A DNA stretch of 64,000 nucleotides from Actinomycetota bacterium (lineage in GTDB: Bacteria; Actinomycetota; Geothermincolia; Geothermincolales; RBG-13-55-18). The stretch is from NCBI GenBank assembly GCA_014360645.1, contig JACIXD010000004.1, positions 1 to 64,000 of the forward strand, written 5' to 3'. The translations under genes and the position numbers were made by a program. Under the pieces are notes generated by a model, which was not told the origin of the DNA, did not search any database, and saw only the letters and a list, made by a program, of their open reading frames with translations. Position 1 is the stretch's first letter; each line of letters begins with the position of its first letter. Positions 8,313 through 59,155 of this stretch are shown piece by piece.

Positions 8313-11300
8313 GTGGCAGAGAAAAAAGGCGCCCTCCCGGCTTGCGTAACACTTGTGGGTGGCAGGTTCCGGGGATCCCGACCGGGACAGGGCGGAAAAT
8401 CACCCCTTGCGGCGGCCCGCGGGGCGGCAGGGACGGCGGCGCGCGGGATTGGCCGCGCCCTCGCAGCAGGGGCGGTCGTGGCCATTCTGCTCGTGCTCGC
8501 TTTAAGCACGCCAGCCATGACTCCCGACAGGGCCGCCTCCTTCCCGGGGCCGGATTCAGGCCACGGCACCTGGACGGGCGAGGTGGCGGTGGGGCTCGCG
8601 GGGGCCAGCCAGGCCCAGGCGGTGCACTCCAACGGGTACCTGGTGATGGCGGCGGACAACGGCCAGGACGTCTATCTCTACCGCGCCTCCGACGAGCTCA
8701 CCCTGAACTGGGGCAGCGGCACTTGCATGGACGTGGACAAATCGCGCCAGGCCTGCGACCCCTACCTCGCGGCCTCGGGCAAGTACGTGGCGCTGTCCTT
8801 CAAAGAGAAGATAAACGGGCGCTGGGCCCTGGTCATCCGCTGCTCCTGGGATGGCGGGGCCACCTGGCCCAAGACCTACATCGACGCGGGGAGCAGCTGG
8901 AACAACTACGAGGCCCACCTGGCCATGGCAGGGAACATGGTGCACGCCGCCTATGTCTCCGACTACCCGGGGCGCAACGAGGTCTATTACCTGCGGCTGG
9001 ACCTCTCCCTCAACCGCCAGGCACAGAGCTGCGCCAGCGACGCGGGAGACGGCAGGACGGCCACCACCCCCTGCATCGAGGCCTCGGGGGAGAAGAGCGC
9101 CGCCGTGTATTACTCCGACGGCAGCGGCGACCTGCGCTCCATCTCCCAGGCCTGGACCTCCGACGGGAGCTCCTGGGGGCGCAACCTGGACCTCATACCC
9201 ACCGGCGGGGGCACGGACATGACCTGGCCGGAGTGCTGCGCCTTCACCGTCAACGGAGAGCGTCGGGTGGCCCTGGTGTGCGACGGCAAAGATGGGGCGG
9301 GAGCACATCATGTCTATTACAAGAGGTACAGGCCTTCTGCGGGGTGGGAAGCACGAGCTGTCCTTCACAACAACAACACCGACTGGTGCTACCCCCAGAT
9401 CGCGGCCCAGGGCTCGGACCTCATGCTCACCTTGAGGGGAAGCGCCGCCTCCGACCCCGCGGGGGGACTGGGCTACTACAACGCCTCCTGCGGGGAGAAC
9501 GACGGCTGGAACAAGATCAGTGGGCTCTTCTACAAGATGATGCCCTGCGACCACCCCGCCTCCACCGACTGCCTCTCCGACGGCACGCGCTTCTTCGCCC
9601 TGGCGGTGGGCACGGGAACCCACGCGGGCCGCGTGCTCACCAAGCGCGAGGACACCAAAGACCCCACGGTATCCATCAACGACCCCGGCAAGTACCAGCG
9701 GGGCAGCTTCCACGTGTCCGCCACCGCCGCCGACGACTTCAAGGTGTCTGGCGACTGGCTCCTCTCCCCAACTTCCGAAAAATACCAGGACGGCATCGTG
9801 TGGGCGGACTTCTCCTACCGTACTACGAACGGGAGCTGGAAAACCCTCTACCATGACCCCGACGCGCCATGGGATGCCTACTTCAACGTCTCCTCCCTCT
9901 CCGACGGCACCTACGACTTCCGGGTGCAGGTCCAGGACACCGCGGGCAGGGGCGCCGAAAACATTCTCGAGGGCATCGTCCTCGACCGCAAGCCCCCATC
10001 CGTGGAGCTCCAGGTCTCAGCCCCCGACGGGGAGAACGGATGGTACGTGACCCAGCCCTCCTTCGGCCCCGCCATCTCGGCAACGGACTCGGGTTCCGGG
10101 GTCAAGGCCTCCTACTACCGCATGGACGGCGCCTCCTCGTGGACCGTCTATTCAAAGCCCTTCGCCCTGGAGGAGGGGGAACACACCGTCTCCTACTACG
10201 CCGAGGACAAGGCGGGCAACGTCTCGGCCACCAGGACCTTCTCCTACCGGGCGGACTTCACCGACCCCGAGGGCGAGATCGCCTTGCCCTCATCTGGCAA
10301 TTACTTCCAGAAGGCACTCGCCGCCAAGGTGGCCTGCTCCGACGCGGTCTCGGGAGTGGCCGCGGTGACCTGGCTGGTGGACGGCGCTCCCCTGTGCTCG
10401 GGGCCCGAACTCGAGGCGACCCTGGACCTCTCGCGCCTTGCCGACGGGGAGCATACCCTCATCGCGGAGATAAAGGACAGGGCAGGGAGGAAGCGCCTCA
10501 CCACCCCTGTGCACTTCTACAAAGACACCACCCCTCCCACAGTGGACATCGTGGAGCCCACGGGAAAGGAATGGCTGAGGGGCATGGTGGCGGTGAAGGC
10601 AGACGTGCGGGACAACCTAAAGGTGGCGGGCGTCGCCTTCTTCGTGGACGGCAAGCAGATAGACGAGCGCACCTCGCCCCCCTGGACGGCGGCCTGGGAC
10701 ACCTCCACGGTGGTGAACGGGTACCATGCCGTCTCAGTGCAGGCATGGGACGCCGCCGGCAACCGGGCGGAGGTACAGGCCTCGGGTGAGGTCACGGTGT
10801 ACGTGGGCAACAACATCTCCGAGACCAACCACTTCGCGGAGGGCTGCACGCGGGAGGGCTTCGACACCTGGCTGTGCCTGCAGAACCCCGGGGATTCCTC
10901 GGCCGAGGTCACGGTGAACTACTACCTGGGTGAAGGACAGGGACAGGCCTCCATGCGCACCTACTCCCTCCCCGCTCACTCCCGCAGCACCGTTTACGTC
11001 AACGGGGATGTGGGGTCGGGCAAGGACGTCTCCATCCAGGTGACCTCGAACCGGCCCATCGTCTCCGAGCGCCCAATGTACTTCTCTTACGCGGGCGAGG
11101 GAGGCCAGGCCATCCTAGGAGGCCACACCGCCCAGGGGGCGCAGTTCCCCAGGCGGGAGTGGTACTTCGCCGAGGGCTGCACGCGGGAGGGCTTCGACAC
11201 CTGGCTGTGCCTGCAGAATCCCCAGGGCCGAGAGGCACAGGTGCGTGTGGAATACCTCATGGAGGGAGGCGCCTCGCTCGTGCGCACCTACCGCCTCGCC

Positions 11301-45104: not shown

Positions 45105-46073
45105 TCAACGGACCTGGAGCGCCTCCAGATTGATGAAGGTGAAGTTGGCGTCGGCGTTCTTGCGTCCGGAGCAGACCAACTTTATGGTGTGGGCTCCCGG
45201 TCCCAGATTGGAGGCGGAGAAGACGGTGTCGCTGACCTTCACCTGGGGAGAATAGAGGTCCACCTCCGCCCTCAATTCGCCGTCGATATATACCTGCATG
45301 ATGCCGTAGTTCCAGTGGCGGGTGCTGATCACCGCCACCTGCTCTCCCGTGAAGGTGTAGGTGCAGGAATCACCGCCGTAGGGGGTGGTCATGATCACGC
45401 TGCCGGTGACCTCCGCGTAGTGCTCCCGGTACCAGACCCCCTGATAGGTCATCCCCTCGGCCACGCAGCTCACCAGGGTGGGGGGAAGGCTCTTCTCGGG
45501 GGGCGTCTTGATGGTGGTGTCCTCCACCACCTCCGGCTCCCGGGTGGGAGTAAGCCCGGTCAGGGATACCGGCTCCACCTCTCCCGTCACGGGGACGCTG
45601 ATCTTCCCCTCCCGGCCGCTGGTGTCCACCGCTGCCACGGCGTAGGTGTTGAACATGGTCCCCTCATCGTCGTAATAGACGTTGTCGGAGATGATGGCGG
45701 GGTTGACCCTGTCGCCCCGGTCGTCGCCCGCCTTGTAGCGATAGACGTTGTACCCCAGAATGCGGATGTCGTCCTTGGCGTCCCAGCTGATGGTCGCGCC
45801 CTTCTTGATGGTCACCCTGACGTTCTCGGGAGCGGCCAGCACCTCCTTCTCGCGTGAGAAGGCGTCCTCGCGCGACGTTCCGCCCTGGTCCGCGCCGGGC
45901 ACGCCGGAAAGGCGCGAGATGTAGAGGATGAAGCTGGCCGCCACCAGCAGGCTGAGCAGGGCATAGACGAGAAAGACCGCGGTGCGGAAACCGGGACGGC
46001 CCGTGCCTTCGCGCTCCCTTTTCGGATATTTTCCGAGAACCTTCACGACGCTGGCTCCCCTGTCTTGTCTCAC
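45105..46073 (-). CDS. Membrane-anchored Fn3-like protein with 'HWxYG' C-terminal domain
   Basis: 322 residues from a GTG at 46073 with GGAAGG seven bases upstream; the frame is open to 46166. A basic N-terminus precedes one TM helix (about 30-52, A-V-F-L-V-Y-A-L-L-S-L-L-V-A-A-S-F-I-L-Y). A fibronectin-III-like domain follows (P-E-N-V-R-V-T-I-K...I-S-W-D-A-K-D-D-I-R-I-L-G-Y-N-V-Y-R), then the C-terminal domain with T-R-H-W-N-Y-G-I-M-Q-V-Y-I-D-G-E-L-R-A-E-V-D-L-Y, also seen at 37971 and 48539. Probably a surface polysaccharide-binding or scaffold protein; no enzyme motif. It faces its relative at 48539 across the IS element. Confidence 0.78.
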   Translation of the reverse strand: MRQDRGASVVKVLGKYPKREREGTGRPGFRTAVFLVYALLSLLVAASFILYISRLSGVPGADQGGTSREDAFSREKEVLAAPENVRVTIKKGATISWDAKDDIRILGYNVYRYKAGDDRGDRVNPAIISDNVYYDDEGTMFNTYAVAAVDTSGREGKISVPVTGEVEPVSLTGLTPTREPEVVEDTTIKTPPEKSLPPTLVSCVAEGMTYQGVWYREHYAEVTGSVIMTTPYGGDSCTYTFTGEQVAVISTRHWNYGIMQVYIDGELRAEVDLYSPQVKVSDTVFSASNLGPGAHTIKLVCSGRKNADANFTFINLEALQVR

Positions 46074-46382
46074 GCTTTTTCCTTCCGTACGTATTATAGA
46101 CGTTGCCCTCTGTCGGAACACATGTTCCATTTCACGCTTGAGCGCGCCTCTCAGGCCGACTCGCATCCCATCGGCGGCATCCGCGCATCGTCGCGGGGCT
46201 CACTTCTCTCGCATGTCCGCACCTGTTATCTCCCAGCTCGAAAAAACCGCGTCCTCGCGGTGACCCTTCACGCGAGAGCGTACTTCCTGGCATTACAAAT
46301 ATTCTTATCGGCGGTATCTGGTTTTACCGCATATTCGTTTGATATCTGTTTGATGCTTGACCGCAAAGGCCAGGTACGAGGC

Positions 46383-46632: not shown

Positions 46633-46656
46633 GGGGTCAGCCCCGGACATGGGACA
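46633..46656 (+). repeat. Family-B repeat
   Basis: GGGGTCAGCCCCGGACATGG plus GACA, same as units at 6935, 53724, 58852, 59940 and 63788. Confidence 0.78.
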
Positions 46657-47070
46657 AAACCTGCCCGGAGCGATCGCCTGGCCCCGACTTGCGACCTCCA
46701 TCCGCGTCGTAGGGAAACCCCGAAAGCGGCTACACACCGTCAGCCGCGCTTCGTCTTCGTCCACCCGCAGTGGGTTTCGCTGTGTTTCGCGGATATCACC
46801 ACACCGGGTTATTGCGACTCTCTGACAGGGACGGCCCTGTCGCCACCTTCCCATTTCGTCTTTCGGGATCTTTCCCGCGCACGGTGGTTGCGCGGGCGCT
46901 AGCTATCCGGTCATCGGATCAGGGAGCGGTGGACGGCGGTGAGGCGGGGCGGGGTTCGCCTTTTGTCCCATGTCCGGGGCTGGAATGATAAAGAACGGAC
47001 GCCCCCGAACAATTGGGTAACAGGCCGATGTGCCGGCAAGGAAGCCGGCCCAACTGAAAGGAGGCGTCCC

Positions 47071-48126
47071 ATGAGTAAAGTGTACATCGGGATCGACCTG
47101 GCGGCCAGGTGCTGCTGGGGGGTTACGCTGGACCAAGGGGGCCAGCTGATCAGCATGGAGAGGTTTTTAACCAGCGGAGAGAACCTTGTCGCCTACGTGA
47201 AGGGCCAGCCGGGCGAGGCCACAGTGCTTATGGAGGAGTGCGATCTGGCGGGCTGGGCGTTGCGGGTGCTCCTCCCCCATGCGGAGAAGGTGGCGGTGTG
47301 CGAGCCCCGAACCAACCTCTGGATCCACCGCGACGCCGTGAAGACCGACAAGATCGACGCCAGGAAACTGGCCCAGATCGCCATGAGCGGCAACTACAAG
47401 GAGGTGTGGCACACCCGGGACCAGGAGATCTACAAACTGCAGATGGCGGTGAGGGCCTACGAGAGGCTCTCCCGCAGGACCACGGCCCTCAAGAACCAGA
47501 TCAAGTCCGAGCTCAGAGGGGTGGGCTTGATCACCGAGGGAGCCTGGGTCTTCGGGAAGCGGGGACGGCGGGATATCCTGGCCCTGGTGGTAGACCCGGT
47601 CGTGCGGGCGATAATCGCATCCGACTACGAGCTGCTGGACTTTACGCTCAAGAGACAGGCCGAGGCCAAGGGGCGCTTCGTGCGTCTGGGCAGGCAGATC
47701 GGCATCTGCCGGGCTTTCGAGGAGATCCCCGGGGTGGGTCCGGTGGTGGCGGCCAAGTTCTGCGCCTACGTGAAATGCCCGCAGCGTTTCGCGAAAAAGG
47801 GGGAGCTCTTCCGTTACTCCCGCCTGGGGGTGAGCAGGCGCGAGACGGGGGGGAAGAGAGTGCGCGGAGAGCACCTGGACCCTTCCGGGTGCGGGGCGCT
47901 CAAGGATATCTCACACAAGGCCTTCCGGGCTGCCTTGAGGACCCGGGGGGACAACCTCATCAAGCGCTCCTATGCGCGAACGCTCGCGAGCACCGGATGC
48001 GAGGCGCACGCCCGCCTGACCACCCAGAGGAAGATACTGGCCATCATGTGGGCCATGTGGAAGCACGGGGAGCTCTATGACGACAACCGTGACCTGAAAG
48101 AGAGGGCTTGCGAGGCCCGCTTGTAG
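47071..48126 (+). CDS. IS110/IS1111-family transposase (DEDD)
   Basis: 351 residues with AAAGGAGG ten bases before the ATG. The N-terminal RuvC-like DEDD domain has I-G-I-D (Asp9), an E in M-E-E-C-D-L-A and T-D-K-I-D-A-R-K-L-A. The C-terminal Transposase_20 domain begins E-I-P-G-V-G-P-V-V-A-A-K-F and contains Y-S-R-L-G-V-S-R-R-E-T-G-G-K, where the family's catalytic Ser lies. The gene appears full length. IS110-family recombinases cut and join DNA under guidance of a bridge RNA made from the element's non-coding end (established for IS621 and relatives). The element seems intact and possibly active. Confidence 0.9.
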   Translation: MSKVYIGIDLAARCCWGVTLDQGGQLISMERFLTSGENLVAYVKGQPGEATVLMEECDLAGWALRVLLPHAEKVAVCEPRTNLWIHRDAVKTDKIDARKLAQIAMSGNYKEVWHTRDQEIYKLQMAVRAYERLSRRTTALKNQIKSELRGVGLITEGAWVFGKRGRRDILALVVDPVVRAIIASDYELLDFTLKRQAEAKGRFVRLGRQIGICRAFEEIPGVGPVVAAKFCAYVKCPQRFAKKGELFRYSRLGVSRRETGGKRVRGEHLDPSGCGALKDISHKAFRAALRTRGDNLIKRSYARTLASTGCEAHARLTTQRKILAIMWAMWKHGELYDDNRDLKERACEARL

Positions 48127-48538: not shown

Positions 48539-50134
48539 TCAGCGGATCTCTACGTAGTCGAAGTTCACGAAGTCGAGGCCTTCTGCTCCGGGAATGCCAG
48601 TGGCCTCCACCACCAGGGTATGCGTGCCCTTGGAGAGTCCGGTCACCTGGAAAACCCCCTGCTGCCACAGGGCGGGCTTGTAGGGACTCTGCTCATCGGG
48701 TAGATAGCCGCCGTCGTAATAGAGATCGAAACTCCCGGCCAATCTGCCGTCAATGTAGAAGTTCACGGTGCCGCAGCTCCAGTAACGGGCGGAGTACACG
48801 CGCACCCTGCGCCCGGTGAAGGTGAGGCTGGCGCGCGAGCCCCTTCCGCTGCTCACCCGCAGCACCCTGCCTCCCGGCTCGAGCCTGGAATAATCCTCCC
48901 TGGCCCAGGTCCCAGCGGGGTATCTCCAGGCCGGGCTGTCGGCGTCGTATATCACGGCGGGGGCCAGTACCGCGCTGGCGGAGGCGGGGCTGCTTCGCTG
49001 CCCGGTGATGTTCACCGCCACCACCTGATAACTCTCACCCTCCACGCCGTCCAGGTAGAAGAACTCCGTGCCCCTGGTGATGAGCTCCGCGTTCAGCCTC
49101 ACCGGCGTGGAGCCGTTGAGGAGGTAGACGTCATAGCCGGCCAGGTCGCTCTCGGTGTTGCGTCCCCACTCCAGAGCCACGCCGGGGTCGTAGGCGGTGG
49201 CAATGAATCCCGTGGGGACGGCCGGGGGCTGGTAAGAATACACGTAGGTAAACATGGCCACGCTGTTGGAGGGAGGGCTGGTCTCTCCGGCGTTGTATAA
49301 CGCCACCACCACGTAGAGATAATATGCGTCGGTACCCAGTTTTCTGTCGGTGTAGCTGGTCCTGCGCGTCTGGAATCCATCTGCCAGCGAAAGCAGTTTC
49401 TCCCAGAGGTCGGTGGCCTCGCGGTTCAGGGCGATGATGCCGTTGAGGACATCCACGTCCTTGCGCATGGCGGCCAGGGCGTCCTCCCTCTCCGTCTGCG
49501 TAAGTCCCTGCAAGCTCAGCAGATCGACTTGGGAGGAGAAATCCTTCGCGTAGGGCGCTGCTTCCGGGTCCATCTCGGAGAGATGGGCATATATCTCCGC
49601 CATGGCGGAGAAATCGCCTCCATTCCACCTCTCGACCTCGTAAGTCGAAAAGCCCGGAGCGCTGGCGCCGGTCCAGGAGAGCAGTATCCGGGGGTTGCCG
49701 GGACTGGCGATATATGTTCCCTCCAGCCCTGAGGGACCGGGGAGGTCGGGGTTGATGGCGCTCACCACCGGCACATCGGGAAGGACGTCGGGTAGTGACG
49801 GTTCAGCGGGTGCCGCCGGCGCCGGCTCCACCGGCAGCGCGGTCGGCGTGGCCGCGTCCCGACCTCCCCCCGGCGCGGCCTTTGCGGGGTCAGGCCGCGC
49901 CGCCGCCGCGGCACGAGGTGCGGTAGCGCCTTCTTCCTGGACCGGCTGCGGCTGCGCGTTGCCCACGGCCCGCGCCATGGCGGCGAAGGAACGCGCGAAG
50001 GACGCCGCCCCCGGCTCTTTCGCCGCCACCACCGCAGGCGTGGCGGCGGGCATGAGGGACACGGCGAGCGCGCAGGCGAGAAAGACGGCGGTGATGGAGG
50101 CGCTGGCCGCCAGGTGCTTCCAGAATCCTCTCAT
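48539..50134 (-). CDS. Exported Fn3-like protein with 'YWSCG' C-terminal domain
   Basis: A 531-residue exported protein: signal peptide (about 8-32, A-S-I-T-A-V-F-L-A-C-A-L-A-V-S-L), an Ala/Pro-rich linker (to about 120), then two Fn3-like domains (I-L-L-S-W-T-G-A...Y-E-V-E-R-W; V-A-L-E-W-G-R-N-T-E-S-D-L-A-G-Y-D-V-Y-L-L). A helical stretch is inserted in the first. The last ~125 residues are the jelly-roll-like domain with S-A-R-Y-W-S-C-G-T-V-N-F-Y-I-D-G-R-L-A-G-S-F-D-L-Y-Y and a C-terminal D-F-V-N-F-D-Y-V-E-I-R. It is related to the gene at 45105 in domain order. Likely an extracellular sugar- or matrix-binding protein. Confidence 0.78.
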   Translation of the reverse strand: MRGFWKHLAASASITAVFLACALAVSLMPAATPAVVAAKEPGAASFARSFAAMARAVGNAQPQPVQEEGATAPRAAAAARPDPAKAAPGGGRDAATPTALPVEPAPAAPAEPSLPDVLPDVPVVSAINPDLPGPSGLEGTYIASPGNPRILLSWTGASAPGFSTYEVERWNGGDFSAMAEIYAHLSEMDPEAAPYAKDFSSQVDLLSLQGLTQTEREDALAAMRKDVDVLNGIIALNREATDLWEKLLSLADGFQTRRTSYTDRKLGTDAYYLYVVVALYNAGETSPPSNSVAMFTYVYSYQPPAVPTGFIATAYDPGVALEWGRNTESDLAGYDVYLLNGSTPVRLNAELITRGTEFFYLDGVEGESYQVVAVNITGQRSSPASASAVLAPAVIYDADSPAWRYPAGTWAREDYSRLEPGGRVLRVSSGRGSRASLTFTGRRVRVYSARYWSCGTVNFYIDGRLAGSFDLYYDGGYLPDEQSPYKPALWQQGVFQVTGLSKGTHTLVVEATGIPGAEGLDFVNFDYVEIR

Positions 50135-50415: not shown

Positions 50416-51684
50416 TCAAAAGCAACCGGGAAGCGGGTCACTTCCAGGTTTCAGCGGCAGCGCGCCGCGCCGGGGGTGAAGAGGTACATGGAATAGCAGT
50501 TGGGCCAGACGACCTGGCACCCGCCGAAGAAAAAGCGGTTGATGCGCATGACCTTCATGCGAGGCTTTTCGTAGGTCCTTTTGTCTTCTTCTTGCCTCTT
50601 CATGCTCTAAAACCTTTACCAGGGCGCGCGTCTGCCTGCATCTCTCGCGGCTCAGACCCGAGGTGTCACCCTCCTCCAGGAAGGAGAGCGCCCGGCAGAT
50701 GGCGCACTTTTCCAGCAGATCACACTTTTCGCATTCCGCCGCCAATTCTTCCTCTCTCTCCCTTAACCTTAATATCGGCGGCGAATCTTTCCATATCCGG
50801 GCGAAATTATCCTTCTTCAAGCTTCCTAACACAAGGGGCAGGGCCACGCAAGGATATACGTCACCGTAGGGGTTGACGGCGAAGACGGTGCGCCCCGCCC
50901 CGCAGTAGCGGCGGTTCTCGCTCTCCAGGCGCACGGGATCGACGGCACATTTGCGCAGGTAACGCGAGAGGTCCTCGTAGGTGAGGGACTCCCCTTCCGC
51001 CCCCAGGATCTCGGCGAGGTTCCCCAGCATGTACTCCGTCTCGAAGCGGATGAAGCGCTCCAAACCCGCATCGTCGAGCCGCAGCGAGGTGGGGGCGGGG
51101 TCGAGGTCGTTGCGCGGGAAGATGAGGGAGGAGAAGATGGCCTTGACCCCCAGATCGTCCGCGAGGGAGGCTATATCCTCCACCTCGACGAGATTGAAGG
51201 CTCCCACCGTGACCTTGAGCAGCAGGGGCACCTCCCGCTCCAGCAGCAGCTCCATGCCGCGCCTTACGGCCGCGAAGGAGCCCTCCACCCCCGTCAGGGC
51301 ATCGTGGGTGGCCGCCCCGGCGCCGTACAGGCTGACGTCCACCCGCAGGGTGGGAAAAGCTCCCAGCATGCGCGCCGTCTGTGCATCGATAAGGGTGCCG
51401 TTGGTCTGAAGGGTTATGACGTAGTCCATGCCCGCCGCCGCCTCCAGCAGCCGCTGCAGGTCCGGGCGAAGGAGCGGCTCGCCGCCGGTGAAAGATATAA
51501 ACAGACACCCCAGGGATGCCAGCTCCTCGAGCAGGGATATCCACCTCTCCGTTCCCATCTCCCCTTCCCGCGCCCTGAACTGGTAGCAATGGCGGCAGGA
51601 GAGGTTGCAGCGGTGGGTGAGTTCAAGGCTGCCGGAATAGGGGACGTTGCCCCCGAATATCCTGTCGACGAACTCGCGCTCCAT
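50416..51684 (-). CDS. Radical SAM/SPASM protein of a RiPP operon
   Basis: 422 residues as read to the first stop. The ATG at 51684 is preferred (GGTGGGAG upstream); the frame is open to 51759. Cys26-x3-Cys30-x2-Cys33 in C-N-L-S-C-R-H-C binds the SAM cluster; F-T-G-G-E-P-L-L-R follows. A SPASM domain starts near residue 260 with Y-C-G-A-G, N-P-Y-G-D-V-Y-P-C and then C-E-K-C-D-L-L-E-K-C-A-I-C. Such enzymes make thioether or C-C links in ribosomal peptides. It is the fifth gene of a leftward operon. The last ~60 residues look non-native: their codons lose GC at third positions and overlap, in another frame, a precursor-like peptide (50451-50603), so the natural C-terminus may be near residue 361. 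Confidence 0.88.
   Translation of the reverse strand: MEREFVDRIFGGNVPYSGSLELTHRCNLSCRHCYQFRAREGEMGTERWISLLEELASLGCLFISFTGGEPLLRPDLQRLLEAAAGMDYVITLQTNGTLIDAQTARMLGAFPTLRVDVSLYGAGAATHDALTGVEGSFAAVRRGMELLLEREVPLLLKVTVGAFNLVEVEDIASLADDLGVKAIFSSLIFPRNDLDPAPTSLRLDDAGLERFIRFETEYMLGNLAEILGAEGESLTYEDLSRYLRKCAVDPVRLESENRRYCGAGRTVFAVNPYGDVYPCVALPLVLGSLKKDNFARIWKDSPPILRLREREEELAAECEKCDLLEKCAICRALSFLEEGDTSGLSRERCRQTRALVKVLEHEEARRRQKDLRKASHEGHAHQPLFLRRVPGRLAQLLFHVPLHPRRGALPLKPGSDPLPGCF
50451..50603 (-). CDS. Candidate RiPP precursor peptide, nested in the radical SAM gene's 3' end
   Basis: An ATG-to-TGA frame of 50 residues, in a different frame from the enclosing radical SAM gene. The leader (1-28) is charged and carries Y-E-K-P (11-14) then M16, like the YxxPxL leader motif that binds PqqD-type recognition domains in lasso-type RiPPs. 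Gly27-Gly28 is a plausible cut site. The core would be C-Q-V-V-W-P-N-C-Y-S-M-Y-L-F-T-P-G-A-A plus R-C-R, with Cys29, Cys36 and Cys49 as modification sites. In residues 15-50, 34 of 36 codons end in G or C, as in real genes here, which argues that this frame is the coding one. AAAGG lies nine bases upstream. No known precursor family was recognised. Confidence 0.72.
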   Translation of the reverse strand: MKRQEEDKRTYEKPRMKVMRINRFFFGGCQVVWPNCYSMYLFTPGAARCR

Positions 51685-51706
51685 GGAGACCGACGCTCCC
51701 ACCTTC

Positions 51707-52735
51707 CTATACCTCTCCGAACTCCGACAACGCCCGCTCGAAAAAGGGCACGGCGTCATCGCCGAGCTCCAGGCTAAACTCGTATATCGGTACCTTCTCC
51801 ATTATGCTTGAAAATATCTCCAGGAGCTTGCTCTCCTCCGCGGGGTGGCCCAAGCGCGGCGCGTTGGCGGACAGTTCGGCCAGAGCATCCCCGGGACCGC
51901 GGCGCCGCAGGCCGCGCGGCAGCTCCGGATGCAGCAGGAAAACGGCTCGCATGGGGATGCCCCCGTAGGCGACTGCACCCCCCTCCTTTCCCGGCCAGGG
52001 CGTGCCGTAGAGGAGGAAGCCGCCGCCATCATCCCGCACCGCCACCAGGTCATCGCCCAGCACACAGTCCCGGGGAAACTGCCTGCTCAGGGTGGTCTTT
52101 CCGGTTCGCGTGTGCCCGGTGAGCAGGAATCCAGCGTCCTCGAAGGAGATGCCCGCGCCATGTACCATGGTACCGCCGGACGCGAGCAGCTTCACCTGCA
52201 GGCAGGCCTTGACGAAACCCTGCAGCGCTTCGCGCACCGCCTCCTCCTCCTCGGGGATTCTCCAGGCGCGGTCCAGAGGCGGGAGCCCCATCCTCCCGGA
52301 GCCCCCCTCCCCTATCTCCCCCAGGGGCTTCAGGCCTTCCCGCCCCGGCGGAGCTCCCCCGCCACCTTCTCCACTCCCTACGCCCGCGACGGCACAGAAC
52401 GCGAAGGCCGTCCCGCTCCTGGCCAGGACAAAGCGCGGAGGGAAAAAGCGGCGCAGAGGGTCGGCGTGGGCCTCCTCGTCCTCATACAGGAGCACCGTTA
52501 GGTCCGGGGAAGCGCCGCGGGAGGACAGCAGGACCGGCCCGAGTGGCCCGGCGGCCGCATCTTCTTGCTCGTACTCTTCCTCCCTCGCTTTACGTAAATC
52601 CTCGACGCCCCGGGAACATGGGGAGCGCACAAAGTCCCTGAAGGTTCGGGGAAGGTGAGGAGTGGGATCGCCCACGTCCGACTCTATGCTCAGGGAGAGG
52701 CCTGCGACGGTAAAATCCTTTCGCCAAGAAGACAA
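51707..52735 (-). CDS. HprK-like P-loop kinase of the RiPP operon
   Basis: A 342-residue protein whose C-terminal half resembles the HPr kinase/PEPCK-like ATP-binding fold: Walker A G-H-T-R-T-G-K-T-T-L-S (about 205-215), then V-L-G-D-D-L-V-A-V. The N-terminal half is variable with an Asp/Glu-rich stretch. In lasso-type and SynChlorMet-type cassettes, HprK-like proteins accompany PqqD and radical SAM genes, and some phosphorylate the peptide C-terminus. Here Ser38 or Thr43 of the precursor could be a target, but that is speculation. The start is probably TTG at 52735. The stop is 22 bases before the radical SAM ATG, consistent with an operon. Confidence 0.78.
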   Translation of the reverse strand: MSSWRKDFTVAGLSLSIESDVGDPTPHLPRTFRDFVRSPCSRGVEDLRKAREEEYEQEDAAAGPLGPVLLSSRGASPDLTVLLYEDEEAHADPLRRFFPPRFVLARSGTAFAFCAVAGVGSGEGGGGAPPGREGLKPLGEIGEGGSGRMGLPPLDRAWRIPEEEEAVREALQGFVKACLQVKLLASGGTMVHGAGISFEDAGFLLTGHTRTGKTTLSRQFPRDCVLGDDLVAVRDDGGGFLLYGTPWPGKEGGAVAYGGIPMRAVFLLHPELPRGLRRRGPGDALAELSANAPRLGHPAEESKLLEIFSSIMEKVPIYEFSLELGDDAVPFFERALSEFGEV

Positions 52736-52788: not shown

Positions 52789-53100
52789 TCATTCCGGGAT
52801 CACCACCTCGACCGCTCCCCGTTCCAGGAGCTCGCCGGCGAAGGAAACCGCGTCGGCCTCCGCGGTCTCCGCGTCCACCTCGAACTCCTCGGCGATCGCC
52901 CGGGCCACCTCGCGGAGCGACCTCTTCCCATCCAGTCGGGACCAGAGAAAAGCGGCCACGGGGTTCAGATGCATGACCTCATCGCGCCGCACGTTCACCA
53001 GCACCGCTTCCCCGTCTATCTCCCGCCAGGCGATGCCTTCCAGGCGCCTGAGCCTGGTAGCGGGACCCAGCGGGGGGTTCTTCCGGCCTTCAAGACTCAT
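52789..53100 (-). CDS. PqqD-family peptide-recognition protein (B1-like)
   Basis: A 103-residue protein of the PqqD/RRE family: R-L-E-G-I-A-W-R-E-I-D-G-E-A-V-L-V-N, then H-L-N-P-V-A-A-F-L-W-S-R-L-D-G and the helix-turn-helix-like V-A-R-A-I-A-E-E-F-E-V-D-A-E-T-A. These small winged-helix proteins bind the precursor's leader and bring it to the modifying enzymes. Its ATG overlaps the end of the B2 gene by 11 bases, a sign of translational coupling. Length and motifs are normal. Confidence 0.9.
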   Translation of the reverse strand: MSLEGRKNPPLGPATRLRRLEGIAWREIDGEAVLVNVRRDEVMHLNPVAAFLWSRLDGKRSLREVARAIAEEFEVDAETAEADAVSFAGELLERGAVEVVIPE

Positions 53101-53515
53101 CCTTCAGCTCCCGGTAGCTTGTGGGCACCTCCATCACCGGCCTGCCGTCCACCGCCACCCAGCAGTGCCCCTCCATCCTGCCGTCGTCGGAGCGCACCCC
53201 GAACACCAGGCACGCGTCATATCCCTCCTCGCGCAGCACGCGTGCGAGGGCGAGGGAACGCACCAGACAGCCGGGGCGCAGGCCGATCCTGTCCAGGAGG
53301 GCGAACCATCGTCCCACCAGGCGTACCACCGCCATCTCGTCAGCCCCTCGCGCCAGCGCGAGCCGCCGCTGCAGGGCGCGCATCTCCACGGCGGGAAAAA
53401 CGCCGGCGCGCAGCAGGGCTTTAGCCGTGCGGGCGTGGATGCGCATCGCGTCGCGGAGGCTCCTCGCTTTGAGCTTCCACATCTCCAGCAACCAGGACTG
53501 CCGCTTTCCATTCAT
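53090..53515 (-). CDS. Lasso-type B2 leader protease (transglutaminase-like)
   Basis: 141 residues from the ATG at 53515; the frame is open to 53749 but that part is repeat DNA (an alternative ATG is at 53533). It matches the Transglut_core3/lasso B2 cysteine protease family: a Cys in R-P-G-C-L-V-R-S-L-A-L-A-R-V-L-R-E-E-G, His in G-H-C-W-V-A-V-D-G and Asp in V-D-G-R-P-V form the expected triad. B2 enzymes remove the leader after B1 (PqqD-like) binds it. It lies between the nucleotidyltransferase and PqqD genes. A repeat cluster (53516-53752) separates it from the gene upstream. Confidence 0.9.
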   Translation of the reverse strand: MNGKRQSWLLEMWKLKARSLRDAMRIHARTAKALLRAGVFPAVEMRALQRRLALARGADEMAVVRLVGRWFALLDRIGLRPGCLVRSLALARVLREEGYDACLVFGVRSDDGRMEGHCWVAVDGRPVMEVPTSYRELKDES

Positions 53516-53559
53516 GCCAACAGTATAAGACATCGCCAGCGGAGCCGGGGCGATGTCAC

Positions 53560-53747
53560 GGGAAGCGACGGCGGAAACAGAGGCGTGTATGGAAAAAGGA
53601 AGAATCGCGGGCAAGGGAGGGGGAGAGTTGGTCGCGGGAGGGGGAGCTGTGGTCTCGGGAGGGGGAATGTCCCATGTCCGGGGCTGGTCGCGGGAGGGGG
53701 AGACTTGGATGCGGGAGGGGGAATGTCCCATGTCCGGGGCTGACCCC
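53560..53747 (-). repeat. Family-B repeats inside the RiPP operon
   Basis: Family-B units at 53668-53686 (truncated) and 53724-53747, with several GCGGGAGGGGGAG blocks (near 53615-53730). The right unit ends five bases from the stop of the nucleotidyltransferase gene, so the repeats fill the gap to the B2 gene. Confidence 0.75.
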
Positions 53748-53752
53748 ATTGA

Positions 53753-54868
53753 TTAGAAGCGGTGGCGGCCCCTGGCGAGGTGCCCGGGGATATGCGCGGC
53801 GCCGCAGCACCGCTCGGGCCATTCGTCGGCGAGGAGAAAGAAGAGGAGGTTGGCGGGCGAGAAGGAGCGCGAGCGGTGGGCGGGGATGGCCTCCGGAGGG
53901 AGGGCGCGGAGGAAGCAGCGCATACTTGCATAATCCGGCAGGAGGGAATCGATAAGGCCGTCCGGGATGCCGCAGGCGAGATCGATGCTTCGCAGGTAGA
54001 GAAGCCCGGGAGCCACGAAGCTCCTCACCCGCCAGCTCCGCGCTTGATCTGCCAGCATATCCCAGTCCAGTTCCCGCGAGCGCAGGATCTCCAGGAGGTC
54101 GCGGAACTTCACCAGACGCGCGTAACGGTGGTTCACGGCCAGGTCCAGCAAGGTGGTGATCGCGAGGTGCTCCGGGCACATGGCGGAAAAAGAAAGGGCC
54201 CCCGACTCCTCCTCCAGGGCTCGATCCCAGATATCGGAAACCCGCAGTGAGGTGCGGCGCTCGTACTCCGCCGGCCAGTGCATCCCGATGTGCACGTCTA
54301 TCTCCATGGCCATCCCGCTCTCCGCCAGGGGGAGGGCATACACGGTATAGGCGGGAGCGGGCACGAAAGAGGGGCGCTCGGGAGCGGGCACGAAGCCGGC
54401 GTCCAGCAGGGAGCGGTGCAGCCCCGGCAGGTCCCCCTCCCTCACCAGAAGGTCCAGGTCCCTGAAGCCGCGCGCGCCCTTCCTCTCGTAGCACCGCGCC
54501 GCGAGATAGAAGCCCTTGAGGGCAATGACCTCTATCCCCCCGCGCGCGAGGGCCGAGAGCGCTCTCTCCGCGCCCAGTTGGATCAGGGCAGCACGTGCGC
54601 CCTCGCGCGTAAAGGCCGCGGCCCACTCCTCCCGCACCTCCCCCGGCAGGACCAGGGGATGGCGCAGACGCGCGCAGTCCTCTTCCACCGCGTGCAGCAG
54701 CGGCTCCAGCTCATGGTAGGAGGCGTGGCGCAAAAGGGCGCGCCGCTGCTCCGGTTCCTCCAGGCATACGGAGGACCTCGCCAACTCAGCGGCGGCCTTC
54801 TCGTCCCCGAACCGATATCCCGTCGCCCGCAGCAAGAACGCGGCCGCGGAACCGCATCTCGCGCCCAT
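53753..54868 (-). CDS. Nucleotidyltransferase-family protein of the RiPP operon
   Basis: A 371-residue protein of the uncharacterised nucleotidyltransferase family (PF14907-like, from memory): L-K-G-F-Y-L-A followed by G-F-R-D-L-D-L-L-V (metal-binding D-x-D), I-D-V-H-I-G-M-H-W, and a helical C-terminal half with H-L-A-I-T-T-L-L-D-L-A. Such proteins are frequent in lasso-type clusters of Gram-positives; their role is unproven. The ATG has GGAGGAGAGG upstream, and this is the first gene of the leftward operon NTase-B2-PqqD-HprK-rSAM-precursor. No transporter or macrolactam synthetase is present within the window. Confidence 0.85.
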   Translation of the reverse strand: MGARCGSAAAFLLRATGYRFGDEKAAAELARSSVCLEEPEQRRALLRHASYHELEPLLHAVEEDCARLRHPLVLPGEVREEWAAAFTREGARAALIQLGAERALSALARGGIEVIALKGFYLAARCYERKGARGFRDLDLLVREGDLPGLHRSLLDAGFVPAPERPSFVPAPAYTVYALPLAESGMAMEIDVHIGMHWPAEYERRTSLRVSDIWDRALEEESGALSFSAMCPEHLAITTLLDLAVNHRYARLVKFRDLLEILRSRELDWDMLADQARSWRVRSFVAPGLLYLRSIDLACGIPDGLIDSLLPDYASMRCFLRALPPEAIPAHRSRSFSPANLLFFLLADEWPERCCGAAHIPGHLARGRHRF

Positions 54869-55264: not shown

Positions 55265-57874
55265 CTAGAAAGTGGGGATGCCGATGGAGCAGTGGGCGCC
55301 CTGTTTGTAGTCCGCCGTCCACATGTACATGGCGCGCTCGGCGAGGACGCCCACGGGGTTGACGCCGACGGACTCCACCACCGTGGAGACGTCGAGGTCG
55401 TGCACGAACTCGTTGACGTGCACCGAGAATCGGCTGTTGGGCTGCATGGTGAAGATGATGCGGTTGGCCTCCCCCTGGGGGCCGAGGAAGACCACCCTGA
55501 CCTCGGCCGCTTCGTCATTGGGGTTCTGCACCAGCACCCACTCGTCGAACCCCGGCCGCGTCGTCCCCTCGGGGAGGTACCAGGAGATGTCCGTCCTTGA
55601 TGACCCTATGGAGTCGTGGGCGCCGCGCTTGCCATCGGGGGTGTTCATGTACATGGCGCGCTCGGCGAGGATCTCCGTGCCGTCCAGCGAGGCCACCACC
55701 GTGGACACGTCCCTGTCGGGGACGAAGTCGTTGACGTGGATGGAGAAACGGGAGTTCGCCTCCATGCGGAAGTCGTAGGTCCCTCCCACCCCCTCCGGGG
55801 TGAGGAAGGTGGCGCGCACGTCGGTACCGGCATCGTTGGGGTTCATCACCAGCACCCACTCGTCGAACCCCGGCCGCGTCGTCCCCTCGGGGAGGTACCA
55901 CTCCGGCGCCGGCGTGGAGAGCCCGATGGAGTCGTGGGCGCCGCGCTTGCCGTCCAGGGTGGCCATATACATGGCGCGCTCGGCGAAGACCGGCAAGGCC
56001 TCGCCTCCCACCACGGTGAGCGATTCCACCCGCGTGGCGATCTCGGTGTCCGGAACGTGCTCGTTCACGTGCACGGTATAACGCCTTCCGGCTCCGATCT
56101 CGGTGACGAACTCCCTCACCACCCCGCCGCGGCCCAGGAACTGCACCCGGGTCTTCACGGGCGTGTTGTTGGGGTTCTGGATGAGCACCCACTCGTCGAA
56201 TCCGTAGTAGGTGGCCCCTTCCGGCAGGTACCACACCGGGTTGGGGACCATGATCCCGATGGAGTCGTGCGCTCCCCACTTGCCGTCGACGGTGCCGAAC
56301 ATGTACATGGCGCGCTCGGACATGATCCTGCCCCCGTCGATGGCGGTGACCATGGTGGAGACGTGCCGTTCGGGGACCCACTCGTTGACGTGCACGGTGA
56401 CCCGCGAGCCCGGCATCGCCTCCAGCAGGGGCCCTTCCACCTCCTCTTCCAGTGTCTGGAAGATCATGCGCACCCGCACCATCTTGGCGCTGGGATTCAT
56501 TACCAGAACCCATTCGTCGAACCCGGTGCCCGTGTAACCCTCGGGCAGGAACCAGCTGTAGGTGAAGAACTCGTAGACCACGCAGTCTCCCGCATCACCG
56601 TACCAGGCCACGTTATAGACCTCCATGCCCGTGATGTCGTAAAGACCGCTCAAGTCCACGCTGAAGGCGCCCGCGGCGTCGCTGTATGTCTCCACCACCA
56701 CGGGGTCTCGGTAGACGTTCATGGTCACGCGCACCGGCCGTCCGGGCGCCGTGTACCCGCTCACTATGTCGGTCACGGGGTCGGCGCTGGAGGCGACGTC
56801 GGCCACGATGATGGAATGGTCGGAGCCCAGGTTGCAGAGCACTTTTTCCCCGGGCGCGATGTCGTGGTGGGAGAACCAGGCATCGAAGAAGCCGTCCACT
56901 CCCGTTCCCACGCTCTTGGTGGCGGTGCCCGCCTTGACGGTCAGGTTGACTCCAGGATTGTAGAACCCCATGACCTCGTCGTACTGGGGATAGACGGCCA
57001 TGGCCGCTCCCGTCCTGGCGATGTTCATGACCACGTGGCCCGCGGCGTTGGTGGAGAATATATATGCCACGTCGCCGTTGCGGATGTTGAACCCGGCGAA
57101 GGATGCGTTGTAACTGCCGCCGGAGGCGGTGGTCTTGCGACGGACCGCACCCGGGGGGATGTCCCCGTAATACGTGGAGGGGATCTTGAGGTATACGTCT
57201 ATGATGTTCCCCGAAGGCGCGCTGCCGGAGACCTTCTCGCTGGAGACGTTCACCGCCCCGGTCAGGGTGCAGTCCACGGACACCGGGGTGCCGCCCGCGA
57301 GGTCGGTCACCCTGACGATGTCGCCGGAGAGGATGTCCTTGCCTCTATCGTCGAAATCCACGAAGAACCAGGCGGCGCCGTTGGTGGTGGCGTCGATGGT
57401 GGAGACCGCCGCTCCTCCCCGCCGCAGCTCTACCCTTACGCCCGCATTGGCATGCGTGGTGTATCCCTCCACGGTGTTGAAGGGGATGGATATGCTGACG
57501 CCCGCTTTAACCGCGGCGCTTTCTACGCTTTCGGCGCTTTCTCCCCCCATGCTCCCCTGCCCGGAGGAAGGCCATCTCACCTCGCTGCGCTCCAGCCTCT
57601 CATGGGCCTCTCCGGGGGTGGACGGCAGGCGCCCCAGGGGGTCGGCGTAAATATGGCCATCCGCACCATCCGGTGTGAAGGTATCCCCCCGCACAGGGCC
57701 TTGGGCGGAAGACGGGAAGTCCTTGTCCGCCGTGGCCCTCTCCCCCCGGGGAGAGGATGTATTTCCCAGGGCAAAAGCCGCGGTGGGCATAAGCAGAAAG
57801 GCCAGGAGTGCCGCTGCGACCGCCAAGCGCATCCCGGCCTTCGCCTTATACGCGCATCCCGCGCTTTCCTTCAT
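55265..57874 (-). CDS. Cassette protein B (copy 2): exported beta-rich protein with four surface repeats
   Basis: An 869-residue exported paralog of the protein at 33456. GGAGGGGGA precedes the ATG. After the signal peptide (about 15-37) it has D-P-L-G-R-L-P-S-T-P-G-E-A-H-E-R-L, the same beta-rich modules (S-T-Y-Y-G-D-I-P-P-G-A; V-Y-P-Q-Y-D-E-V-M-G) and four shared repeats. These read F/Y-L-P-E-G-x-T-x-x-G-F-D-E-W-V-L-V: here 'L-P-E-G' where copy 1 has 'L-A-E-G'. The order and length match copy 1 throughout, so the pair diverged after duplication of the whole gene. It follows its partner A (57921) with 46 bases between. Confidence 0.82.
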   Translation of the reverse strand: MKESAGCAYKAKAGMRLAVAAALLAFLLMPTAAFALGNTSSPRGERATADKDFPSSAQGPVRGDTFTPDGADGHIYADPLGRLPSTPGEAHERLERSEVRWPSSGQGSMGGESAESVESAAVKAGVSISIPFNTVEGYTTHANAGVRVELRRGGAAVSTIDATTNGAAWFFVDFDDRGKDILSGDIVRVTDLAGGTPVSVDCTLTGAVNVSSEKVSGSAPSGNIIDVYLKIPSTYYGDIPPGAVRRKTTASGGSYNASFAGFNIRNGDVAYIFSTNAAGHVVMNIARTGAAMAVYPQYDEVMGFYNPGVNLTVKAGTATKSVGTGVDGFFDAWFSHHDIAPGEKVLCNLGSDHSIIVADVASSADPVTDIVSGYTAPGRPVRVTMNVYRDPVVVETYSDAAGAFSVDLSGLYDITGMEVYNVAWYGDAGDCVVYEFFTYSWFLPEGYTGTGFDEWVLVMNPSAKMVRVRMIFQTLEEEVEGPLLEAMPGSRVTVHVNEWVPERHVSTMVTAIDGGRIMSERAMYMFGTVDGKWGAHDSIGIMVPNPVWYLPEGATYYGFDEWVLIQNPNNTPVKTRVQFLGRGGVVREFVTEIGAGRRYTVHVNEHVPDTEIATRVESLTVVGGEALPVFAERAMYMATLDGKRGAHDSIGLSTPAPEWYLPEGTTRPGFDEWVLVMNPNDAGTDVRATFLTPEGVGGTYDFRMEANSRFSIHVNDFVPDRDVSTVVASLDGTEILAERAMYMNTPDGKRGAHDSIGSSRTDISWYLPEGTTRPGFDEWVLVQNPNDEAAEVRVVFLGPQGEANRIIFTMQPNSRFSVHVNEFVHDLDVSTVVESVGVNPVGVLAERAMYMWTADYKQGAHCSIGIPTF

Positions 57875-58851: not shown

Positions 58852-59155
58852 TGGGGTCAGCCCCGGACATGGGACATTGCCAATGACTCCCATGGGGCGT
58901 CCGTTCTTTATCGTCCCAACCCCGGAAACGGGACAGTGACGATGACTCCCATACCGTGGGGTCAGCCCCGGACATGGGACATTGCCAATGACTCCCATGG
59001 GGCGTCCGTTCTCTATCGTCCCAACCCCGGAAACGGGACAGTGACGATGACTCCCATGGAGCGTCCGTTCTCTATCATTCCAGCTCCGGATATGGGACAT
59101 TGCCAATGACTCCCATGGGGCGTCCGTTCTCTATCATTCCAGCTCCGGATATGGG
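58852..59155. repeat. Tandem array of family-B-derived units
   Basis: GCGTCCGTTCT recurs at about 58898, 59003, 59062 and 59121 (spacings 105, 59, 59). It is set in units reading GGGACATTGCCAATGACTCC, CATGGGGCGTCCGTTCTCTA and a TCATTCCAGCTCCGG or TCGTCCCAACCCCGG end. Family-B starts (GGGGTCAGCCCCGGACAT) lie at 58852 and 58957. The piece ending GGACGCCCC on the minus strand matches the left flank of the IS element at 46969-47005. Confidence 0.88.

Follow-up and report, generated by a model that had tools for sequence, protein, structure and literature searches.

A 50-residue candidate RiPP precursor inside a radical SAM/SPASM gene, next to lasso-type PqqD, B2, and HprK-like genes, in a Geothermincolales bacterium

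The DNA studied covers positions 1 to 64,000 (forward strand) of contig JACIXD010000004.1 from an Actinomycetota bacterium (GCA_014360645.1; GTDB lineage Actinomycetota; Geothermincolia; Geothermincolales; RBG-13-55-18), and we call this whole 64,000-nucleotide stretch the window. The comparison set comprised 18 genomes of the order (Candidatus Solincola/Geothermincola and kin), 31 of the class, and 397 of the phylum. On the (-) strand, genes for a B2 peptidase, a PqqD protein, an HprK-fold protein, and a radical SAM/SPASM enzyme lie directly upstream of a gene for a 50-aa peptide, and they are closely spaced or overlap. Wherever a single contig spans the cluster, the order B2-PqqD-HprK-radical SAM-peptide is kept; in one genome (G009) the locus is split across two contigs. 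The initial annotation had described an operon of these genes together with a nucleotidyltransferase. We confirmed the B2, PqqD, HprK-like, and radical SAM/SPASM genes. However, the NTP_transf_5 nucleotidyltransferase (53753 to 54868, -; PF14907, 116.8 bits) is a conserved neighbour that most relatives encode on the other strand. It is co-oriented only within this genus and is not generally in the operon. A secreted protein with PEGxTxxGFDEWVLVxNP repeats (55265 to 57874; weak DUF5719) is conserved beside the nucleotidyltransferase in many loci.

The B2 gene (53090 to 53749, -) encodes a lasso-type leader peptidase that matches NF033537 (54.7 bits against a cut-off of 33) and PF13471, and for which no solved relative was found by sequence. 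The first 72 residues of this frame are not conserved in tblastn coverage, and they are encoded in or near a repeat, partly within a 56-nt direct repeat. Because homology begins near residue 67-72, Met73 (about 53533) is probably the true start. The next gene (52789 to 53100, -) encodes a discrete PqqD/B1-type RiPP recognition element, with PF05402 at 70.7 bits against a cut-off of 23.4. Its PDB matches include TbiB1, PqqD, and TfuB1. The HprK/PEPCK-fold kinase-like protein (51707 to 52735, -) has a P-loop, GHTRTGKTT, whose residues are invariant in the alignment, and its TTG start is retained in most relatives. It matches HprK_rel_B and ScmC weakly and no family above cut-off. An AlphaFold2 model (pLDDT 85.8, pTM 0.84) matches PEP carboxykinases and HprK/P with a Foldseek probability of 1.00; by this predicted fold, the protein matches the PEPCK/HprK kinase superfamily. 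In one relative (G017), the HprK-like gene (L042, about 8545-9689, -) is seemingly frameshifted, with two tblastn pieces that have overlapping query ranges and a C terminus in a different frame.

The conserved part of the radical SAM/SPASM maturase (50605 to 51684, -) starts MEREFVDRIF and was recognised by PF04055, PF13186, the alignment, and PDB relatives. Its CxxxCxxC motif and eight further Cys residues are invariant, and all of the expected cluster-binding Cys are kept. Downstream of the peptide gene, a secreted protein of FN3/beta-sandwich type (48539 to 50134, -; weak Pfam/NCBIfam matches) is a recurring neighbour. Most loci have such proteins on the downstream side of the peptide, sometimes several of them; the window has a second one at 45105-46166. 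These proteins are possible partners or targets of the peptide. No exporter was recognised among the scanned window proteins.

The peptide gene starts with ATG and occupies 50451 to 50603 (-), exactly where the initial annotation had placed it, wholly within a 447-aa frame (50416 to 51759, -). Its product is MKRQEEDKRTYEKPRMKVMRINRFFFGGCQVVWPNCYSMYLFTPGAARCR, in which the reported YEKP, Gly-Gly, and three Cys are all found. A count made by eye, that 34 of 36 codons in the second part of the peptide carry G or C at the third position, also proved exact; the strand's two other frames give 16/35 and 17/35. The peptide matched no family in Pfam or NCBIfam. Using tblastn, we found orthologues in 13 of the 18 genomes of the order, spread over 7 genera and 46-92% identical, with E values of 3e-31 to 9e-8 in the 12 genomes besides the window's own; weaker tblastn matches in G014 are chance. 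In all 13, the peptide is the next gene behind the same radical SAM/SPASM gene, and the remaining 5 genomes lack both peptide and enzyme. When the window gene was compared with seven orthologues of matching length, dN/dS in the peptide frame was about 0.1-0.3 and the substitutions fell mostly at third positions of that frame. Read in either of the other two frames, the same bases gave a dN equal to or greater than dS. Judged by these comparisons, purifying selection is acting on the peptide frame and not on the enclosing one.

The claim that the precursor is hidden in another frame of the radical SAM gene holds for this genome but not for the family. Full nesting was found only here; in the 12 relatives the two genes overlap by no more than 38 nt or are separate, the enzyme stop lying at -38 to +173 nt with respect to the peptide start. 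The overlap is mostly 20 nt and otherwise 11 to 38 nt, and two loci have gaps of 1 and 173 nt, the latter in G011 (the start codon assigned to locus L046 is uncertain, and so is its value). At the stop site, the congeners read AGC TGA and the window reads AGA AGA. These two substitutions alter only Ala6 to Glu6 in the peptide frame. The congeners' enzymes end in LEHEEARS followed by a stop, whereas the window enzyme reads LEHEEARRRQKDLRK and then runs on for about 60 more codons. This read-through extension (50416 to 50603, -; EEARRRQKD where relatives have EEARS and a stop) is not conserved, as judged from the orthologue stops and from a dN/dS that is not below 1 in its frame. Complete nesting exists in this genome because the radical SAM gene lost its stop codon. 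By comparison with the relatives, the stop loss, which is seen in one draft assembly, appears to be recent and private to this genome, and it may be either a fixed change or an error of that assembly.

The overlap of about 20 nt in the relatives suggests, by standard reasoning from gene layout, that the enzyme and peptide genes are translationally coupled. This usual arrangement is lost in the window, since the new enzyme stop (50416) falls past the stop of the peptide. With the old stop removed, the enzyme here would read on in another frame across the entire peptide gene, and translation of the peptide would have to begin at an internal start. A single stop loss can in this way conceal a RiPP precursor entirely within the gene of its maturase, and gene callers that do not allow overlaps would miss it.

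Spurious frames are common in GC-rich genes, and only in this window does the radical SAM frame stay open across the peptide, as would be expected of a chance frame in an enzyme gene with a genuine long C-terminal tail. However, homologous loci do not lack the short frame, which is found in 13 genomes. The last 60 residues of the enclosing frame, by contrast, are absent from the orthologous enzymes, which end at the peptide start or close to it. The peptide is also conserved with dN/dS below 1, and in G011 the two genes lie 173 nt apart. A chance origin is refuted by the orthologues, and we give it next to no credence. Because tblastn found orthologues in 12 further genomes and only its own frame has a dN/dS well below 1, the 50-aa frame is, on this comparative evidence, a true and strongly conserved protein gene.

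We then looked at how widely the peptide is distributed. A profile search of the rest of the class (13 further genomes) gave no additional members, and the same search among the 397 phylum genomes gave chance-like matches only. These weak matches (L060-L066) were set aside as chance; apart from L060, they are mostly interrupted by stops. L060, from the peptide-less genome G014, has YKSPEMRVIKINR and was rejected, having no in-frame start and lying antisense to another open frame. In about 85,000 species genomes, a further scan gave 11 peptide loci, all of them Actinomycetota according to their record titles, several of which name Candidatus Solincola or Geothermincola. Because these searches yield so few loci, the peptide family is, by their measure, narrow in distribution.

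In the alignment of 13 sequences, M1, Y11, P14, M16, V18, I21, R23, F24, F25, C29, C36, Y37, and C49 are invariant. W33-P34 is kept in 12 of the 13, and residue 38 is Ser in 12 and Thr in one. The peptide can be divided into a leader with Y11-x-x-P14-x-M16-x-V18 followed by INRFFF, and a core of about residues 28-50 that holds Cys29, Cys36, and Cys49. The Gly-Gly noted initially is present in the window peptide but is no family feature, as GS, LH, GL, and SM replace it in four orthologues. Because GG is not invariant, we rejected a double-glycine export/cleavage motif.

The leader motif Y11xxP14xM16 is invariant at Y, P, and M, and the PqqD protein resembles lasso B1 proteins. Lasso elements have been assigned YxxP as the motif that they recognise (PMC12710340). 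The leader of the bsf lasso system has Tyr, Pro, and Leu at -17, -14, and -12; the kinase phosphorylates the precursor with the help of B1, and B2 removes the leader (PMC10368454). Ala changes at the Y and L of BsfA barely affected phosphorylation or cleavage (PMC10368454). Lasso clusters with a kinase (paeninodin type; bsf of Bradymonas sediminis, PMC10368454) share with the present cluster a YxxPx(L/M) leader, a discrete B1/PqqD, a B2 cysteine protease, and an HprK-type kinase, and a nucleotidyltransferase neighbour is also common to both. The peptide might for these reasons be a lasso precursor, and its leader motif and spacing, with a B1-like PqqD and a B2 protein nearby, would fit. However, the cluster has a radical SAM/SPASM enzyme and no lasso cyclase. 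No Asn-synthetase-like cyclase (PF00733) occurs on any cluster contig of the 13 genomes; all PF00733 matches are on other contigs, 4 of the 13 genomes have none, and none was seen among the scanned window proteins. The Cys-containing core, GCQVVWPNCYSMYLFTPGAARCR, has no Asp or Glu to close a macrolactam ring. The penultimate leader position, numbered from Tyr(-17), is Phe26 in 12 of 13 sequences and Leu in one, and not the Thr (rarely Ile/Val) of lasso leaders. Lasso membership was rejected because the cyclase is lacking, and we regard a lasso product as highly improbable.

The most likely reading is instead a RiPP precursor that is handled in lasso style (YxxP leader, PqqD/B1, B2, and HprK-type kinase), with the radical SAM enzyme replacing the lasso cyclase and its chemistry inferred. 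The short gene lies beside modification enzymes and is conserved in leader and core. The PqqD would bind the leader at Y11xxP14xM16 and present the core to the radical SAM enzyme. That enzyme would join Cys 29, 36, and 49 to other residues of the core, and the bonds would most likely be thioethers. The kinase would phosphorylate the core, and Ser38 (Thr in one genome) is the best candidate because it is the only conserved core hydroxyl besides Y37. Finally, B2 would cut between Gly27 and Gly28, a site obtained by applying the Tyr-based numbering of lasso precursors. The leader would then end in RFFFG with F26 at -2, and the core would start at G28-C29. Both the Ser38 target and the cut site are extrapolations.

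The nearest solved structures to the radical SAM enzyme are SkfB and PqqE, and 5v1q (SuiB) and 5wgg (CteB) rank lower. The nearest curated families in NCBIfam include heme b and d1 enzymes, but all matches to curated radical SAM families are far below cut-off, and therefore the chemistry is not readable from family membership. Sactipeptide and ranthipeptide systems (SkfB, CteB) likewise have a radical SAM/SPASM or twitch maturase and a Cys-containing core. In the present cluster, CxxxCxxC and the SPASM ligands are invariant, as are the three core Cys in all 13 sequences, and thioethers formed from these Cys are the most likely, inferred chemistry. Unlike the SkfB/CteB systems, however, this cluster has a separate PqqD-type recognition element, a lasso-type leader motif, a B2 protease, and a kinase, and its thioethers are predicted.

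A live rival is that the enzyme cross-links aromatic residues (W33, Y37) through carbon-carbon or other bonds, or turns the peptide into a redox cofactor in the manner of PqqE and MftC. The closest solved relatives include PqqE, the mycofactocin maturase model ranks with the best NCBIfam matches although below cut-off, Y37 is invariant, and W33-P34 is almost always kept. A single copy per genome and a conserved core also suit a cofactor better than an antimicrobial. The PqqA/PqqD/PqqE system shares a separate PqqD and a SPASM radical SAM enzyme that acts on a short peptide, an activity that is here predicted. However, both PqqD and enzyme score below the PQQ family cut-offs (for the enzyme, PqqE at 104.4 against 381.35 bits and mycofactocin at 135.4 against 265), a B2 protease and a kinase are present, and, unlike PqqA, the core has three Cys. 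These Cys are invariant, and sister systems have YxxP peptides that are otherwise unrelated but carry Cys at a similar spacing. We therefore hold aromatic or cofactor chemistry to be rather unlikely. The SynChlorMet cassette (TIGR04248-04251) also resembles the cluster, with its PqqD relative, kinase-like ScmC, and SPASM enzymes appearing as best or weak matches. It differs in gene set, with only one radical SAM enzyme here, and its families scored far below cut-off (ScmD 43.6 against 100, ScmE 123.9 against 400). A literature search on SynChlorMet gave no match.

Distant relatives of the radical SAM enzyme have a similar layout. Matches in G312 (two copies), G203, and G317 adjoin PqqD genes; in G312 and G203, HprK-like genes are adjacent as well. 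Each of these enzymes is followed directly by a short Cys-containing peptide that has YEKP, YEPP, YETP, or YRAP, and a further one, with YEKPVL, follows the enzyme of G138. The first Cys is at Tyr+18 or Tyr+20 in these peptides (18 in the window), and their cores are otherwise unrelated. The other distant matches inspected had no such peptide, and some of them may resemble heme-synthesis enzymes, given a ferrochelatase-like neighbour. The G312 locus (L095, 2000-7600) holds two tandem HprK-PqqD-radical SAM-peptide cassettes whose peptide cores are unrelated, with an S24/S26-type peptidase (named from its sequence) between them and an ABC transporter alongside.

Modification of the peptide is a prediction, and the product could be a small regulatory or structural protein that is co-expressed with the operon enzymes and left unmodified. 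However, the gene adjoins a discrete recognition element, a protease, and a maturase, its motif matches that class of element, and the same layout recurs in distant systems with different cores; we consider an unmodified protein improbable. The initial proposal that the peptide is the substrate gains support from its joint presence and absence with the enzyme, the gene order, the invariant YxxPxM leader, which is of a type bound by lasso B1/PqqD proteins, and the layout in distant relatives. Taken as a whole, a 50-aa RiPP precursor with the proposed handling by PqqD, radical SAM enzyme, kinase, and B2 is in our judgment quite probable.

Surveys have noted about 300 lasso-like recognition elements that are discrete proteins and adjoin radical SAM enzymes (RRE-Finder, PMC7470986), and therefore this kind of cluster is already known in outline. 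The present cluster fits that kind, and the passages of RRE-Finder considered here describe neither a precursor family nor an association with B2 or a kinase. Our literature search on clusters of similar composition turned up RRE surveys and lasso clusters with kinases, and no described match, and the combination of this precursor family with B2 and an HprK-type kinase but no lasso cyclase was not found described in the literature searched. The peptide is a candidate for the missing substrate of discrete PqqD/B2/HprK/radical SAM clusters, a kind so far surveyed by recognition element. It offers a concrete, testable core and leader, and it would link lasso-type leader handling with radical SAM chemistry. 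More speculatively, these clusters could form a separate RiPP class, in which a lasso-type recognition, cleavage, and kinase module serves a radical SAM cross-linker instead of a lasso cyclase and each genome makes one strongly conserved, phosphorylated, Cys-cross-linked 23-mer that acts as a cofactor or cell-surface factor and not as an antimicrobial. We regard this as a tentative idea that is doubtful at present.

The window also carries a dispersed repeat with the core CCCCGGACATGGGAC, at 46638-46982, 53629-53740, 6936, 58861-58980, 59941, and 63789. Its 14-base core occurs 9 times in the window, against 0.12 expected, and 89 times in the genome. G008 has 32 copies, which often form inverted pairs with about 50-60 bases between them, and the two congeners have none. 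The element is REP/MITE-like. One perfect 22-nt inverted pair of it precedes an IS110-type transposase at 46939-48126.
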